The notes below the pieces were generated by a model. The model was not told where the DNA came from and did not search any database. It saw nothing but the letters and a program-made list of their open reading frames with translations. Shown piece by piece: positions 14,481 through 61,084 of a stretch of 64,000 nucleotides of DNA; position 1 is the first letter of the stretch; each line of letters begins with the position of its first letter. The stretch is from Bremerella sp. P1 (GTDB lineage: Bacteria > Planctomycetota > Planctomycetia > Pirellulales > Pirellulaceae), in contig NZ_CP118164.1 in assembly GCF_028748185.1 (NCBI RefSeq), positions 1,798,001-1,862,000 of the forward strand. The letters run 5' to 3'. The translations under genes were made by a program, and so were the position numbers.

Positions 14481-15698
14481 CTATGGTTTGGCAAACTTCC
14501 CCATTAACAGGATCGCGTCTGTTCGATCATCGATCACGAAAAACAGAAATGGATGATCTGCACGGAAGACCGCGTCCGCTTCGCGTACACTTTTGGAGAT
14601 AAAAGCAGTCGTAACCGCCGCGACCTCGGTGCCTGACTCGTTGAGGTCGATCACCGCCTGATGACGGATGTCTTGGAGGTACAAGTTCGACTTCCCAGCG
14701 ACTGGGGTAAAATCGGCCTCGGGACTGAAAGCTGTCCGAACGCCAAGTCGGTTGAGCGTTTGCTTCAGCGAACTACCTTCTGTTATCTGAAAACGAGGCA
14801 GAAATAGCTCGACGCTCATTTCCTTCGCGTCCGACCGCAAACGGCTTAAATCGGCCGCACTCAACTTCCGCTCTTCGGACTGTGGTACGTCCACGTCCTT
14901 GGGAAGTACGACGACAAAGGTGACCCGCTCACCTTGATAGGGGAGTTCCACGAGTTGGCACTGCGAATTCTCGGCATAGCGGATCCTCGCGATTTGGTGC
15001 ATCAGAGACACCTTCGGTGCCGATTCTTCTTTGCCCTTCGTCTTTCCAAACGCCGCTTCGCGCGTGAGTTGTGGCAGAAATGGATGCGTCCAGCTATCTC
15101 GAAAATAGAGCGAGCTAGTCACGAGCAGCATCGTATCGGGCGAAATCGGAATGGCGTCGTCGAACTTGATCTGACTGCCTGTTTGCTGCTGCATCCATTG
15201 TCTGACTTCGCGTCGGGCTTGTTCCGGCTCACTACGGAAATCGAGGAGAAAGAGTTCTGCTCGATATTTCTCGCGTAGGATCTGTAACATTGCCGGTTGG
15301 TAGTCGTATCCGGTTGCACCCCAAAGCTGTGCCGCATAGCGAAGGGTGAAGTCTCCTTGATCCGAATCAAGCTCACCCAACAACTGCGACCAGGCAGCCG
15401 CCAACTCCGCACGCCGGCCGTTAAAGCGTGTGGCGGCGGACAATTCTGCGGCGGTTTGCCCCCGCGCTCCCGTCTCGAGCATCGATAGGCACGCGGAAAC
15501 GCTAAGGGGCGAGTAAACAAGGTTATCCTCGTCCTTCTCCAGTTCGAGAGCGTAGAGCAAATCAAACCCGACTTGATTGACCGCAATTGCCAGCGGTGAT
15601 TCTTTCTGTGTCGAAATCTCTTCCCCCAGTCCAGGCCACGCAGTCAACAAAACCAGGGCCCAAGAGATGCCGCTGAGCTGCAAGAGGTTTCCGAACAT
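14481..15698 (-). CDS. Secreted serpin (serine/cysteine protease inhibitor)
   Basis: 405 aa. Signal peptide about 1-25 (...WPGLGEE). The serpin fold is complete: NLVYSPLSVSACLSMLETGARGQT (56-82), VTSSLYFRDSWTHPF (193-207), LMHQ...LVELPYQG, LPRFQITEGSSLKQTLNRLGV, and C-terminal ADHPFLFFVID (380-390). The hinge of the reactive-centre loop, E354-S-G356-T357-E-V-A-A, has Thr at P14 and small residues after it, as in inhibitory serpins. Counting 17 residues from E354 puts P1 at S370, with K369 and R372 either side, so a basic cleavage site is possible. The start has AAGGAG 6 nt upstream and lies 14 nt after the stop of a caspase-fold protease gene, so the two are almost certainly co-expressed. Confidence 0.92.
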   Translation of the reverse strand: MFGNLLQLSGISWALVLLTAWPGLGEEISTQKESPLAIAVNQVGFDLLYALELEKDEDNLVYSPLSVSACLSMLETGARGQTAAELSAATRFNGRRAELAAAWSQLLGELDSDQGDFTLRYAAQLWGATGYDYQPAMLQILREKYRAELFLLDFRSEPEQARREVRQWMQQQTGSQIKFDDAIPISPDTMLLVTSSLYFRDSWTHPFLPQLTREAAFGKTKGKEESAPKVSLMHQIARIRYAENSQCQLVELPYQGERVTFVVVLPKDVDVPQSEERKLSAADLSRLRSDAKEMSVELFLPRFQITEGSSLKQTLNRLGVRTAFSPEADFTPVAGKSNLYLQDIRHQAVIDLNESGTEVAAVTTAFISKSVREADAVFRADHPFLFFVIDDRTDAILLMGKFAKP

Positions 15699-15712
15699 GT
15701 TTGACTCCTTGG

Positions 15713-16861
15713 TCAGCGGCGAACGCTGATGTCACGGATCCGAACCTTGACCGTCCGCGACGTACGGTCGGCGGGATTATTCAGGTAGAACTTGTGGACG
15801 TCAGGTTGAAGCGCCGCCTGGCCCGACCAGAAGGTCTGCATGAAGTCGTTGGTATTTCTGATCTGGGTCACCAGTGGATTTCCCCAACCGGTTTCAATGC
15901 GATAAAGAACCTCTCCAACCTGAAAACCTGCCCACTCCGCCTGAGAATCCTTAAAGACTTCGTCGATACGAACGCCTTGGCCGTTGGTATTGCTCACACG
16001 GATACCTAGCCGCCACGGTACTTTGGGGATCGGGGTCGCGATTGGTTCGCCCAGACTGGCGACTTTGACGGTCTGCGTCTTCTGATTGGGAAATAGAACT
16101 CGAAAGTCCTTGCTCGCGTCGTATTGCATTTTGAAGGCTTCCTTCGTGCGGAGTGCTACCTGCCCCACGACTTCTCGCCAAGTGATCGGAGTTCCGCGGA
16201 ACGCCATGTTGGGCTGATTGATCACATCGATCAACGCCGAAGTGAAGATGCTGCCACTCTCATTCAACGCGACGGCTTCTTCCCCTGGAGCTGCCGCATG
16301 AAGGTCGACAATGCCTCGGTGGCGAAAGAAGAGATACCGACATGCGTCGTGATCGATCCCTTGGGCCATCGACATCGCAGCCAAAGCGCGCGGCTCGATC
16401 ACGTTGCTACAGGCATCGGTGATCAGGACGGTCAGGCGGGCATTTTTCGCTTTCAGCCGTTCCAGCAAGTCGTTCCGCAGCAACAATTCTCCGTTCGACA
16501 TTCGCAGGACTTGGCCGCGTTCCTTCATGAATGCCCCATGCCCAGTGAAGTAACACAAAACCGTATCGTCATTCTGCACCTCCATGGCATCCACCTTGGC
16601 CAACAGGTTTTCCTTGGTCACAGCGCTCCCTTTGAGCACTTCGACCGGCCCGCGACGTACGCCTGGAATTTCGGCGGTGATCATTTCGTAGAACTTTCGC
16701 CTGTCAATGTCGACCAATGGTCCCACGGTCGTATCGGCCGTATCGGCAACGATCAAAGCGTGAAGACGTCGTGCATCGTTCCCATCGAGTCCATATGCCG
16801 AAGACAGGCCGGACAGCACCAAGATTGCTGCCGTCAGCATCGTATATCGTTTCCAAAACAT
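15713..16861 (-). CDS. Secreted caspase-fold (peptidase C14/metacaspase-like) protease with PDZ-like C-terminal domain
   Basis: 382 aa. Signal peptide about 1-23 (LSGLSSAYG). The caspase-hemoglobinase fold follows: HALIVADTAD as strand 1, then the catalytic pair H108 in CYFTGHGA and C151 in LITDACSN. A loop rich in polar residues (190-205, containing EAVALNESGSIFTSAL) matches the post-catalytic p10-like strand region. Residues about 283-345 resemble a PDZ domain (LGIRVSNTNGQG...AEWAGFQVGEVLYRI). Metacaspases of this group usually cut after Arg or Lys and may need calcium. An extended frame upstream to 16948 was rejected: the ATG at 16861 has GGAG upstream and gives the signal peptide. It precedes the serpin gene by 14 nt. 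Confidence 0.88.
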   Translation of the reverse strand: MFWKRYTMLTAAILVLSGLSSAYGLDGNDARRLHALIVADTADTTVGPLVDIDRRKFYEMITAEIPGVRRGPVEVLKGSAVTKENLLAKVDAMEVQNDDTVLCYFTGHGAFMKERGQVLRMSNGELLLRNDLLERLKAKNARLTVLITDACSNVIEPRALAAMSMAQGIDHDACRYLFFRHRGIVDLHAAAPGEEAVALNESGSIFTSALIDVINQPNMAFRGTPITWREVVGQVALRTKEAFKMQYDASKDFRVLFPNQKTQTVKVASLGEPIATPIPKVPWRLGIRVSNTNGQGVRIDEVFKDSQAEWAGFQVGEVLYRIETGWGNPLVTQIRNTNDFMQTFWSGQAALQPDVHKFYLNNPADRTSRTVKVRIRDISVRR

Positions 16862-16981
16862 GATGATTCTCCATGGGTCCAAGTTGGGGTCGAGTCGCAT
16901 TCGCTTGTGAGCATGGTGCCTCCGACCGAAGTCTCGTCGGAGGCACACGTTGTTTTTCGGCCGTTTCGTCTAAAGGTACGA

Positions 16982-18067
16982 CTACGGCCTCATCATCACG
17001 TCACCGGTAAAGCTGCTAAGGTCGCCAGAGATCGTCCACTTCCGGCCTAGCGCCCCCTTTGCTCCAAAGAACTCACCAAGATCTTTGTTTTGTTCCGCTA
17101 GTTCAGCCTGGGTGAACTGCACCGAACTCGTATTCACGATCGCGTCAGCTGGCAGGGCGCCTTTGCGAACTTGGGTAAGACCACCTGGAGTGAAGACGAT
17201 CGCCTCAACCGTGGTCGCTCCTGTTCCGCCTGCTCGGCTGATGTAGAGCGGGTAATACACGTAGTCGGAAACGAAACGGTATTGGATTGCCTGTTTGACA
17301 TCGAGTTCGGTCCGATTAAGAACGAGATCGAAGGCAAAATGGCGGAAGCCCAGCTTCTGATACCGGTCGATCAATTCCCGAATATGCCCCGTGATAAGTG
17401 GTTGGGCATCCTCGCCGAACTTCTTGTTCACGTAGGCTTCCACTTCGGTGACAAACTGATCGGTACTGTCGGCTTCGATGACAAAGATGTTGTGGGCGCC
17501 GATCTTCGCTTCCGCGATGACAGGCTTCTTGGCCGATCCAACCAACTTCTTGGCCAGAAGAGCACTACAATTGGCAAACAATTCGCGATCCCCTTCCTTG
17601 ATCTCGATCGGCTTCCCGGGCAGAGGCAACACGCTGAGCGCTGCCCCTTCTCCTTTGAATGCTTGCTGTTCGGTAGAAAGCGTGAGGATCTCCTCTTCAC
17701 CGTTCCAAGCGATCACGGCAAATTGTCGTGGTTCCTTGAACGTGCGGATGCCTTTTCCGACTGCCTTGGCGGCAGCGATACTATTCCATTCTGGATCGTC
17801 ACCTCGATAGGCCGGGATTCCGCCGCCTGCAGCAACGGTCTGGCTTTGTGACTGCGTTTGGGTTTGATTGACGACCAGCGGTGGTGGTACGGGTCGACGA
17901 ATGACAACCGTCGGAGGTGGATAGTAAGTCGTCGCACGCACGCTTACGCCAACATGCACGTGGACTCGGGTCGTAACAAGGATTTGCCCACAATCCGCAA
18001 AGACGGAAGAGGTGCAAAACAGTAGCGTCCCCAGGACAACTGGTAGTGAAATCGTTTTGACGTTCAT
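16982..18067 (-). CDS. Secreted DUF2330-like protein
   Basis: 361 aa. Signal peptide about 1-25 (...SSVFADCG), then a His/Val/Pro-rich stretch with an unusual alternating run (QTQTQSQSQT, about residues 70-80). The body resembles DUF2330 proteins in that FAVIAWNGEEEILTLST corresponds to their ALIxWDGGxExLxLST region. It continues with a LPLPGKPIEIKEGDRELF segment like their VPVPSEPEV...LF. Function of the family is unknown. ATG at 18067 was preferred over a TTG 15 nt upstream. It lies 120 nt upstream of the caspase gene and 47 nt downstream of a membrane-protein gene, all on the minus strand, so it may belong to the caspase-serpin transcript. Confidence 0.7.
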   Translation of the reverse strand: MNVKTISLPVVLGTLLFCTSSVFADCGQILVTTRVHVHVGVSVRATTYYPPPTVVIRRPVPPPLVVNQTQTQSQSQTVAAGGGIPAYRGDDPEWNSIAAAKAVGKGIRTFKEPRQFAVIAWNGEEEILTLSTEQQAFKGEGAALSVLPLPGKPIEIKEGDRELFANCSALLAKKLVGSAKKPVIAEAKIGAHNIFVIEADSTDQFVTEVEAYVNKKFGEDAQPLITGHIRELIDRYQKLGFRHFAFDLVLNRTELDVKQAIQYRFVSDYVYYPLYISRAGGTGATTVEAIVFTPGGLTQVRKGALPADAIVNTSSVQFTQAELAEQNKDLGEFFGAKGALGRKWTISGDLSSFTGDVMMRP

Positions 18068-18114
18068 GGCTCTAACTTTCAAAGAGGGGTGAGTATTGTT
18101 CGTCGTTGGTTTGC

Positions 18115-60142: not shown

Positions 60143-61084
60143 TTAAAAGTCGCCAACGACATTGCCATCGCTGCGTTGACCAAGATTTGAGTAGGTGGCC
60201 ATATCGATCGTCTCGGCGATATAACGAGTCGATCCATCGCAGAGGGCGAAGATGGCACCCCCTGGGTGACGGCTTGTGAAGACCCGCTCTTCGCGCCATC
60301 CATCCGAGCCTCCATCTTCATTGATGGCAAAGTCCACCACACCCACCGTTCCAAAGACGGCAGCAACGGAGCACGCGGCGCACTTATCCAAACGAGGCCC
60401 CATCCAGACGGCCTTCGCGTTGCCATGTAACTGACTCTTTTCTCCAAACGAAAGCGTATTGCTCGTTCCGTCGGTAATATCCGCGAAGCTGATCTTGCTA
60501 TTGGGTCCAAAGACGCCATCAGGCTTGAATTTCAGATTGTCGTCATCAGAGCGGCCGTAAAACGGATTGGACGAAGCAGCTACCGCTGGCGAGTGAAAGG
60601 TACCAGCTACCAGGACATCAAACCGCCCCATAACCCCGCTGTAATTCGATGCCCCTAAGGCATAGCTGCCGGAAGTGACGGGACTGGGCGGATTGTCCGA
60701 AGGACAGATAAAAGCATCTAATCTGGTATCGCTTAAGTCGGTCGGAACGCTGCCATAGCTCACGATGCCTGGGTTTATTTGATCGAACAGGGCACTTTGC
60801 TCGATGTACGGAAGTACGAACGTTCCCCAGCCGAACGACGGAGAACCGAGCGTTGACGCTCCGCGGCCCGAGGCCAAGTAAATCCAACCAGGAGGAAAGG
60901 ACCCCAGCGTGTCATGATAATTGTGCAACGACAGACTGAGCTGCTTTAGGTTGTTCGTGCATTGCATTCGGCGAGCTGCCTCGCGAGCTTGTTGTACAGC
61001 TGGCAGTAACAATGCAATCAACACGCCGATGATCGCGATGACCACCAGCAACTCGACCAGCGTGAAACCACGTCGATTTGCCAT
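60143..61084 (-). CDS. DUF1559 pseudopilin-like protein
   Basis: 313 aa. Type IV prepilin-like N-terminus, RRGFTLVELLVVIAIIGVL, with the methylation-type Gly-Phe-Thr junction near residue 6. QQAREAARRMQCTNNLKQLSLSLHNYHDTLGSFPPGW follows. The C-terminal SRHPGGAIFALCDGS box is the DUF1559 signature. The ATG at 61084 is used, not a TTG 15 nt upstream. These proteins are a hallmark of the phylum and are inserted at the membrane by the type II/IV system. It heads the minus-strand sialic-acid group. Confidence 0.93.
   Translation of the reverse strand: MANRRGFTLVELLVVIAIIGVLIALLLPAVQQAREAARRMQCTNNLKQLSLSLHNYHDTLGSFPPGWIYLASGRGASTLGSPSFGWGTFVLPYIEQSALFDQINPGIVSYGSVPTDLSDTRLDAFICPSDNPPSPVTSGSYALGASNYSGVMGRFDVLVAGTFHSPAVAASSNPFYGRSDDDNLKFKPDGVFGPNSKISFADITDGTSNTLSFGEKSQLHGNAKAVWMGPRLDKCAACSVAAVFGTVGVVDFAINEDGGSDGWREERVFTSRHPGGAIFALCDGSTRYIAETIDMATYSNLGQRSDGNVVGDF

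Follow-up and report, generated by a model that had tools for sequence, protein, structure and literature searches.

On the minus strand of the window, by which we mean the whole stretch of 64,000 nucleotides of Bremerella sp. P1 analysed here, a gene for a caspase-fold protease is followed by a gene for a serpin, which starts 14 nt after the caspase stop codon (Table 1). Positions, strand and spacing of the two genes were confirmed from the sequence as given in the initial annotation, and so was the ribosome binding site it had placed between them: the gap before the serpin ATG reads CCAAGGAGTCAAAC, and its AAGGAG motif ends six bases ahead of the start. The short gap suggests that caspase and serpin are carried on one transcript. 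On the upstream side, 120 nt separate the caspase from a gene at 16982-18082, which was scanned without its first residues and showed likeness to DUF2330 only below the cut-off. These 120 nt include an 11-bp inverted repeat that possibly marks a boundary of the transcription unit; no T-run was seen by eye after it. A sodium:solute symporter is encoded downstream of the pair. Three neighbouring genes were scanned, the DUF2330-like gene, a DUF6629 gene and the symporter.

Table 1. Features of the caspase-serpin locus, in window coordinates
Feature	Position	Strand	Basis or remark
Caspase-fold (C14) protease, 382 aa, ATG at 16861	15713..16861	-	Signal-peptide-like N-terminus, PDZ-like C-terminal domain
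Caspase, signal-peptide-like N-terminus, residues 1-24	16790..16861	-	By eye and hydropathy
Caspase domain, residues 30-264; H108, D149, C151	16070..16774	-	Profile and alignment
Caspase, PDZ-like domain, about residues 285-375	15737..16009	-	Clear in homologues; no Pfam detection in the window protein
Caspase-serpin gap, 14 nt, Shine-Dalgarno AAGGAG at 15705-15710	15699..15712	-	Sequence
Serpin, 405 aa, signal-peptide-like N-terminus	14481..15698	-	PF00079, hydropathy
Serpin hinge and reactive-centre loop, residues 354-378	14565..14639	-	P15 G356, P2 K369, P1 S370, P2' R372 by count
11-bp inverted repeat, 9-nt loop, between upstream gene and caspase	16916..16946	-	By eye

The caspase fold with H108 and C151, proposed by the initial annotation, was borne out by a Pfam match to PF00656 (E 9.9e-9, 35.7 bits; cut-off 21.4). 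This His-Cys dyad is invariant in our caspase alignment, and D149, the acidic residue two positions before the catalytic Cys, has an equivalent in all 23 aligned rows. D149 was profile-aligned with the D-x-C of MALT1, a weak match (E 0.0055). The residue at this position presumably lines the S1 pocket, and an acidic residue two before the Cys would be a trait of metacaspase- or paracaspase-like basic specificity. Metacaspases and MALT1 were the nearest solved proteins by sequence profile, all of them weak matches (E 0.003-0.01). With the predicted model (mean pLDDT 82), Foldseek returned MALT1 paracaspase and then animal caspases as the nearest solved folds (best E 3.5e-10). The TM score to the query was only 0.38 for MALT1, 0.61 for a caspase-only MALT1 chain and about 0.7 for caspase-7. 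In the PDZ-like tail strands are present in the model; Pfam gave no PDZ match in this protein up to E 0.1, and NCBIfam gave no more than a weak match to MamE (E 0.063). The initial annotation had mentioned neither this domain nor the inverted repeat upstream of the caspase.

The serpin matched PF00079 as a full-length domain (E 1.3e-88, 298 bits, positions 2-370; cut-off 27). Inhibitory serpin hinges have Gly at P15, Thr at P14 and small residues at P12-P8. The hinge of the window serpin, G356-T-E-V-A-A-V-T, conforms to this inhibitory-type pattern, as had been proposed, with Val at P12 and P9 less usual than Ala. P1 residues were assigned by counting from the hinge Gly as P15. In the window serpin this count places Ser370 at P1, with K369 at P2 and R372 at P2', so that the two basic residues described earlier do stand beside P1. 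The solved structures nearest to the serpin model (mean pLDDT 85) were cleaved serpins whose loop is inserted (TM to target 0.92, rmsd 1.7). Since AlphaFold modelled residues 356-369 as a strand, the loop appears at least compatible with insertion, which is no proof of function. Both N-termini have a hydrophobic core, with a best 12-residue Kyte-Doolittle mean of 2.29 in the caspase and 1.84 in the serpin, and this suggests that both proteins are exported or secreted.

The genome of 6.96 Mb contains one serpin match and three C14 matches, and the other two C14 genes are located elsewhere. Assuming about 5500 genes, we estimate that same-strand adjacency of the two would arise by chance on the order of 1 in 1000. 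Within the genus, no caspase was detected in any of eight sisters, one of which is only 68% complete, and a serpin was found in one of the eight, unlinked. In two sisters (G034 and G033), of which stretches of 34 kb and 16 kb were compared, 84-85% DNA identity is retained over the symporter and about 190-220 bp of adjoining sequence. The stretch carrying the pair did not align with these sister sequences, and hence seems to be a variable one; elsewhere short matches occurred at window positions 60902-61072. A clean empty site for the pair was not found in the compared stretches.

Conservation of the pair in relatives, set beforehand as a test of the annotation, was seen at the level of the family and beyond; the test failed for the genus and for 30 serpin loci sampled from the phylum. 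Among the 241 genomes of the window's family Pirellulaceae, 28 had a caspase match, 56 a serpin match and nine had both. A linked pair was present in three of these nine, namely in the window, in G159 and in G112. The predicted open reading frames of G159 follow each other in this order with 22 nt between them, its serpin being cut by the contig end, and the caspase and serpin of G112 are separated by a single gene that has no Pfam match. The nearest relative of the window caspase, G055, has a TPR protein as its neighbour, which counts against reading the two genes as a pair. In the Thermoguttaceae, 67 serpin genes over the cut-off were found in 44 of 119 genomes, and at least 22 of the 67 (in at least 17 of the 44 genomes) had a same-strand caspase upstream within 3.5 kb. 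For this count the 67 serpin places were compared with 39 listed caspase places chosen by contig; the remaining listed caspases of the family are on other contigs or, in G340, more than 17 kb off by eye. The other 45 serpins are unlinked in these assemblies, some of them at contig ends. Both families belong to the Pirellulales.

All loci were recounted under one laxer rule, which gave 24 linked serpins read locus by locus, three in the Pirellulaceae and 21 in the Thermoguttaceae, the two families to which they are confined. The ratio of 24 to 160 is not a frequency, because sampling largely followed the order of E-values or targeted the pair-bearing family and some loci occur twice; the fair counts are those of whole families. 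L206 and L208 were re-read by eye, because a Lys at P1 stood there without a caspase, and L186 and three others were also read by eye. The enzyme of L155, without a Pfam C14 match at E 0.05, was classed as a caspase by our own profile. In every one of the 24 cases the caspase lies upstream on the same strand, and in 22 the open frames overlap or are at most 201 nt apart. Contiguous genes in conserved order are thus found among linked loci and are not conserved within the window's genus. The Thermoguttaceae genome G511 carries three caspase-serpin pairs in tandem. Its serpins group together in the tree, as do two of its tandem caspases; the third is a long-branched degenerate copy.

At the 30 serpin loci from the phylum sample (294 genomes) no caspase was found in flanks of 1.5 kb. 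Nine caspase open frames were obtained from this sample, of which only that of the window was accompanied by a serpin; as the caspase query included PDZ domains, which took its four scored candidates per genome, no negative is drawn from it. The caspase alignment was also run against 84,980 species genomes by way of one short peptide pattern, which makes this no census. It yielded 64 loci, of which 16 have a serpin in the stretch examined. Of these, 13 were contigs already found, one was L241 (the same as G817) and two lay outside the Planctomycetota. The latter two belong to the Thiotrichales, a Thiomargarita record and a Thiotrichaceae record, in both of which a serpin comes after three caspases in tandem. 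A second Thiomargarita record (L270), covered over 6.6 kb, contained no serpin, and plasmids gave one weak caspase match (18.7% identity). The recurrence of the pair in some other bacteria suggests a protease with a built-in brake, of the kind described for plants and viruses.

In the best serpin tree the window serpin stands among unlinked serpins. A single clade of linked serpins was rejected (p-AU 0.0002; 20 linked rows of 67), whereas joining the window serpin to the Thermoguttaceae group was not (p-AU 0.13). Both AU tests were run by a quick method on 67 of the 147 tree rows, after removal of 12 named loci and thinning of the other unlinked rows to every third one. As the linked serpins do not form one clade, the pairing has been gained, lost or both on several occasions. 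The serpin of the window groups with unlinked serpins, yet its union with the Thermoguttaceae group was not rejected, and independent recruitment is therefore likely. One might go further and regard the adjacency in the window as accidental and unrelated to the pairs elsewhere, in line with this place in the tree and with the absence of the pair in the genus sisters. Such a coincidence is hardly credible, however, in a genome with so few candidate genes and with order, strand and close spacing as in the other examples, such as the 22 nt of G159.

A basic residue at the counted P1 position is strongly associated with linkage to a caspase. Lys or Arg was present in 19 of 23 linked serpins (17 Lys, 2 Arg) as against 13 of 113 unlinked ones (Fisher p 2.6e-11); before one locus was re-classed, the counts were 18 of 22 and 14 of 114. 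Because related sequences inflate this test, identity clustering was applied, and the difference persisted at 50% identity (13 of 17 linked versus 3 of 44 unlinked clusters, p 1.6e-7) and at 40% (7 of 11 versus 0 of 17, p 2.8e-4). The tree allowed only four independent contrasts for the trait, and the sign test on them was not significant. The Fisher and cluster counts comprise 23 linked serpins, the hinge and tree-contrast analyses the 22 that were readable. The four linked serpins with a non-basic P1 have Ser (the window), Met, Ile and Leu. The argument from basic residues, raised in the initial annotation, accordingly holds for the relatives and is weaker in the window. At the counted P2, the window serpin has Lys and both Thiotrichales serpins have Arg; by eye, these two also show Arg at P1'. 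The serpin of G817 has a Lys at P1 by eye and is outside all the pairing and P1 counts.

A basic P1 suits trypsin-like enzymes as well as caspases. The serpin might accordingly guard against foreign trypsin-like serine proteases of hosts, predators or neighbours, the caspase being a separate exported enzyme that shares the operon through the same setting of use. Arg at P1 also occurs in ten unlinked serpins, and at least one linked locus, L236 with three pairs, comes from a gut sample (goat colon). We nevertheless consider this explanation unlikely, since it does not account for the fixed order and spacing, the tandem duplication of the whole unit and the concentration of basic P1 residues in caspase-linked serpins.

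The linked genes differ in catalytic state and in additional domains. Of 22 upstream caspases that could be read, 21 have both His and Cys intact. One of the tandem caspases of G511 has lost both catalytic residues, yet its Lys-P1 serpin is retained. Six Thermoguttaceae loci have a serpin followed by a caspase homologue in which the catalytic His is replaced by Lys. At G448 C96 and G372 C137 a dead homologue (Lys/Ala and Gln/Ile in place of the His-Cys dyad) comes directly after an active caspase, and no serpin separates them. According to the Pfam scan, ten linked caspases contain one to seven PDZ domains each, and the Thiotrichales caspases none; L178, L191 and L207 match the caspase profile only before the PDZ part, L191 being cut by the contig. 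PDZ sequences also occur within serpins: the serpin match of G159 is split by a PDZ match (6e-12), and that of G112 likewise contains one (5e-4, below the Pfam cut-off). Furthermore, a C-terminal tag of about the form SGxGGx(M/I/L/F)(E/Q/N) was found by pattern in seven linked serpin genes and by eye in an eighth (L164). The pattern, tried on frames of at least 80 aa, hit no other gene among 22,433 open frames, repeats included, an exclusivity that is post hoc because the pattern was written after the tails had been viewed. The tag was also looked for at the ends of the caspases, and none was seen.

These additional parts could also mean that the serpin is a substrate, a chaperone-like partner or a localiser of the caspase, with loop cleavage activating or releasing something and no trapping. 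Non-inhibitory serpins exist, and a catalytically dead linked caspase, as well as the PDZ matches in G159 and G112 and the C-terminal tag, would fit such a role. It is made quite improbable by the inhibitory hinge, with its Gly at P15 and small P12-P8 residues, which most linked serpins keep; the exceptions, in loop or hinge, are L066, L178 and L207.

Taken together, recurrence, fixed order, duplication of the unit and the basic bait are best explained by a cognate enzyme-inhibitor pair, and the earlier reading of the window as a protease with its own serpin is supported. Judging from the sequences, we give a probability of roughly two in three to the serpin serving as cognate suicide inhibitor for the basic-specific caspase next to it, in a unit that acts outside the cytoplasm. 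For the window itself the enzyme-inhibitor link is extrapolated from relatives with which it has roughly a quarter of the residues in common. The caspase-fold enzyme would be exported and would probably cut after Lys or Arg, with its PDZ-like domain picking substrates or partners. The serpin would be made from the same message, just after the caspase, and would offer a loop with a basic residue as bait. Upon cleavage the loop would insert into sheet A and the protease would be trapped covalently, as by plant serpins with metacaspases. In the window serpin cleavage may occur at K369-S370, shifted by one residue towards the hinge relative to the canonical P1. The poxvirus serpin CrmA has Asp at P1, and its P1 lies one residue nearer the hinge; a study of CrmA loop length was reportedly made by Tesch in 2005.

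Individual elements of this proposal have precedents. Passages on orthocaspases and other prokaryotic caspase homologues describe them as cutting after positively charged residues (PMC6426788), and plant and algal serpins are reported, in the parts of the articles concerned with them, to act on metacaspases (PMC10609998, PMC10896300). Arabidopsis AtSerpin1 with AtMC9 and AtMC1 and an algal serpin with CrMCA likewise set a serpin on a basic-specific caspase fold; these systems differ in being eukaryotic, and the relevant passages describe no paired genes or PDZ domains (PMC10609998, PMC10896300). Poxvirus CrmA similarly provides cross-class serpin inhibition of the caspase fold, as outlined in PMC7863939, but is directed by a virus against its host. 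In bacteria, staphopain-staphostatin, SpeB-Spi and the Bacteroides C10 operons, as far as treated in PMC3462683, also combine contiguous, transcriptionally coupled genes for a cysteine protease and an inhibitor. In contrast to the pair described here, they consist of papain-like proteases and small non-serpin inhibitors.

The inhibitors in such operons were read as self-protection in the passages concerned (PMC3462683), which raises the possibility of a toxin-immunity system with the exported caspase as a weapon against other cells and the serpin as protection for the producer. The patchy distribution of the pair and its variable chromosomal neighbourhood in the window would agree with that. 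The three scanned neighbours are unlike delivery genes, however, and we regard this function as very improbable.

A previous survey by Asplund-Samuelsson and colleagues in 2012 listed 217 prokaryotic metacaspase operons and, in the text concerned, a 'protease and protease inhibition' operon in four Rhizobium strains with the inhibitor type unnamed; the words serpin and PDZ are absent from its main text (PMC3501461). Likewise, the words operon and Planctomycet are absent from the main text of a serpin phylogeny of 2021 (PMC8233489). The Thiomargarita genome paper reports 59 metacaspases and, in the corresponding portion of its text, leaves serpins unmentioned (PMC4853749). Among the matches listed from the open-access literature, none reported a bacterial caspase-serpin pair in its title or the start of its abstract, and a report may exist elsewhere. 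Bacteria are already known to have protease-inhibitor pairs encoded in operons, and within the same limits no report of the caspase-serpin combination was found.

A bolder and tentative interpretation, which we find doubtful as a whole, extends the cognate pair to a tethered, self-limiting caspase module. PDZ domains would hold the serpin to its own caspase, either as a domain built into the serpin (G159, G112) or through the conserved C-terminal tag, here taken as about (S/K)GxGGx(M/I/L/F)(E/Q/N), read by the PDZ domains of the caspase. Dead homologues may act as decoy or scaffold in some lineages, the pairing may have arisen more than once, and three caspases may share one serpin in the Thiotrichales. 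If true, such a module would amount to a proteolytic switch outside the cytoplasm that carries its own brake.

The roles and control of bacterial caspase homologues are largely open, and the pair names a likely inhibitor of a given bacterial caspase. With the predicted cleavage bond, specificity and control become testable with two small proteins. To our knowledge, the physiological targets of bacterial serpins are mostly unknown. If the serpin is the cognate inhibitor of the caspase, some bacterial serpins would gain a target within their own cell, and the control of caspase-fold proteases by serpins would extend beyond plants and viruses to bacteria.

Caspase homologues encoded immediately 3' of a linked serpin, that is, a serpin gene with a caspase upstream on the same strand, carry Lys in place of the catalytic His at six loci. 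In two Thiotrichales records the serpin is preceded by three tandem caspases and has a lipoprotein-like start. As judged by eye, the third caspase of these arrays has a long C-terminal part with an aromatic last residue, and this part possibly forms a membrane barrel.

Coordinates of caspase and serpin gene arrangements within the fetched loci
Feature	Locus	Position	Record
Three tandem caspases, then serpin	L257	5839-10741	Thiotrichales
Three tandem caspases, then serpin	L271	5776-11942	Thiotrichales
His to Lys caspase homologue after linked serpin	L171	2424-4052	
As above	L186	1-1169	
As above	L187	389-2029	
As above	L188	3189-4871	
As above	L193	2926-4596	
As above	L195	1740-3353	

A distinct group of Pirellulales serpins formed one starred clade in the serpin tree. 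Their frames comprise 739-755 aa (L174, L175, L182, L183, L184, L224) or 926 aa (L179), and the Pfam serpin match ends near position 330, as if a large segment were located at or after the reactive loop.

Upstream of the window caspase, a perfect 11-bp inverted repeat (window 16916-16946, found by eye) separates this gene from the DUF2330-like gene.

Window-related caspases also have other neighbors. In G055 (L067:1-2662), a long TPR protein, incomplete because it is cut by the contig end, starts 1 nt after the nearest relative of the window caspase. At L069-L073, L075, L077, L085, and L086, the caspase gene is followed by one encoding a 666-693 aa protein; the one scanned, from L069, comprises HEAT repeats and a DUF900 alpha/beta hydrolase. 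This protein is a different partner for the same caspase family as that of the window.
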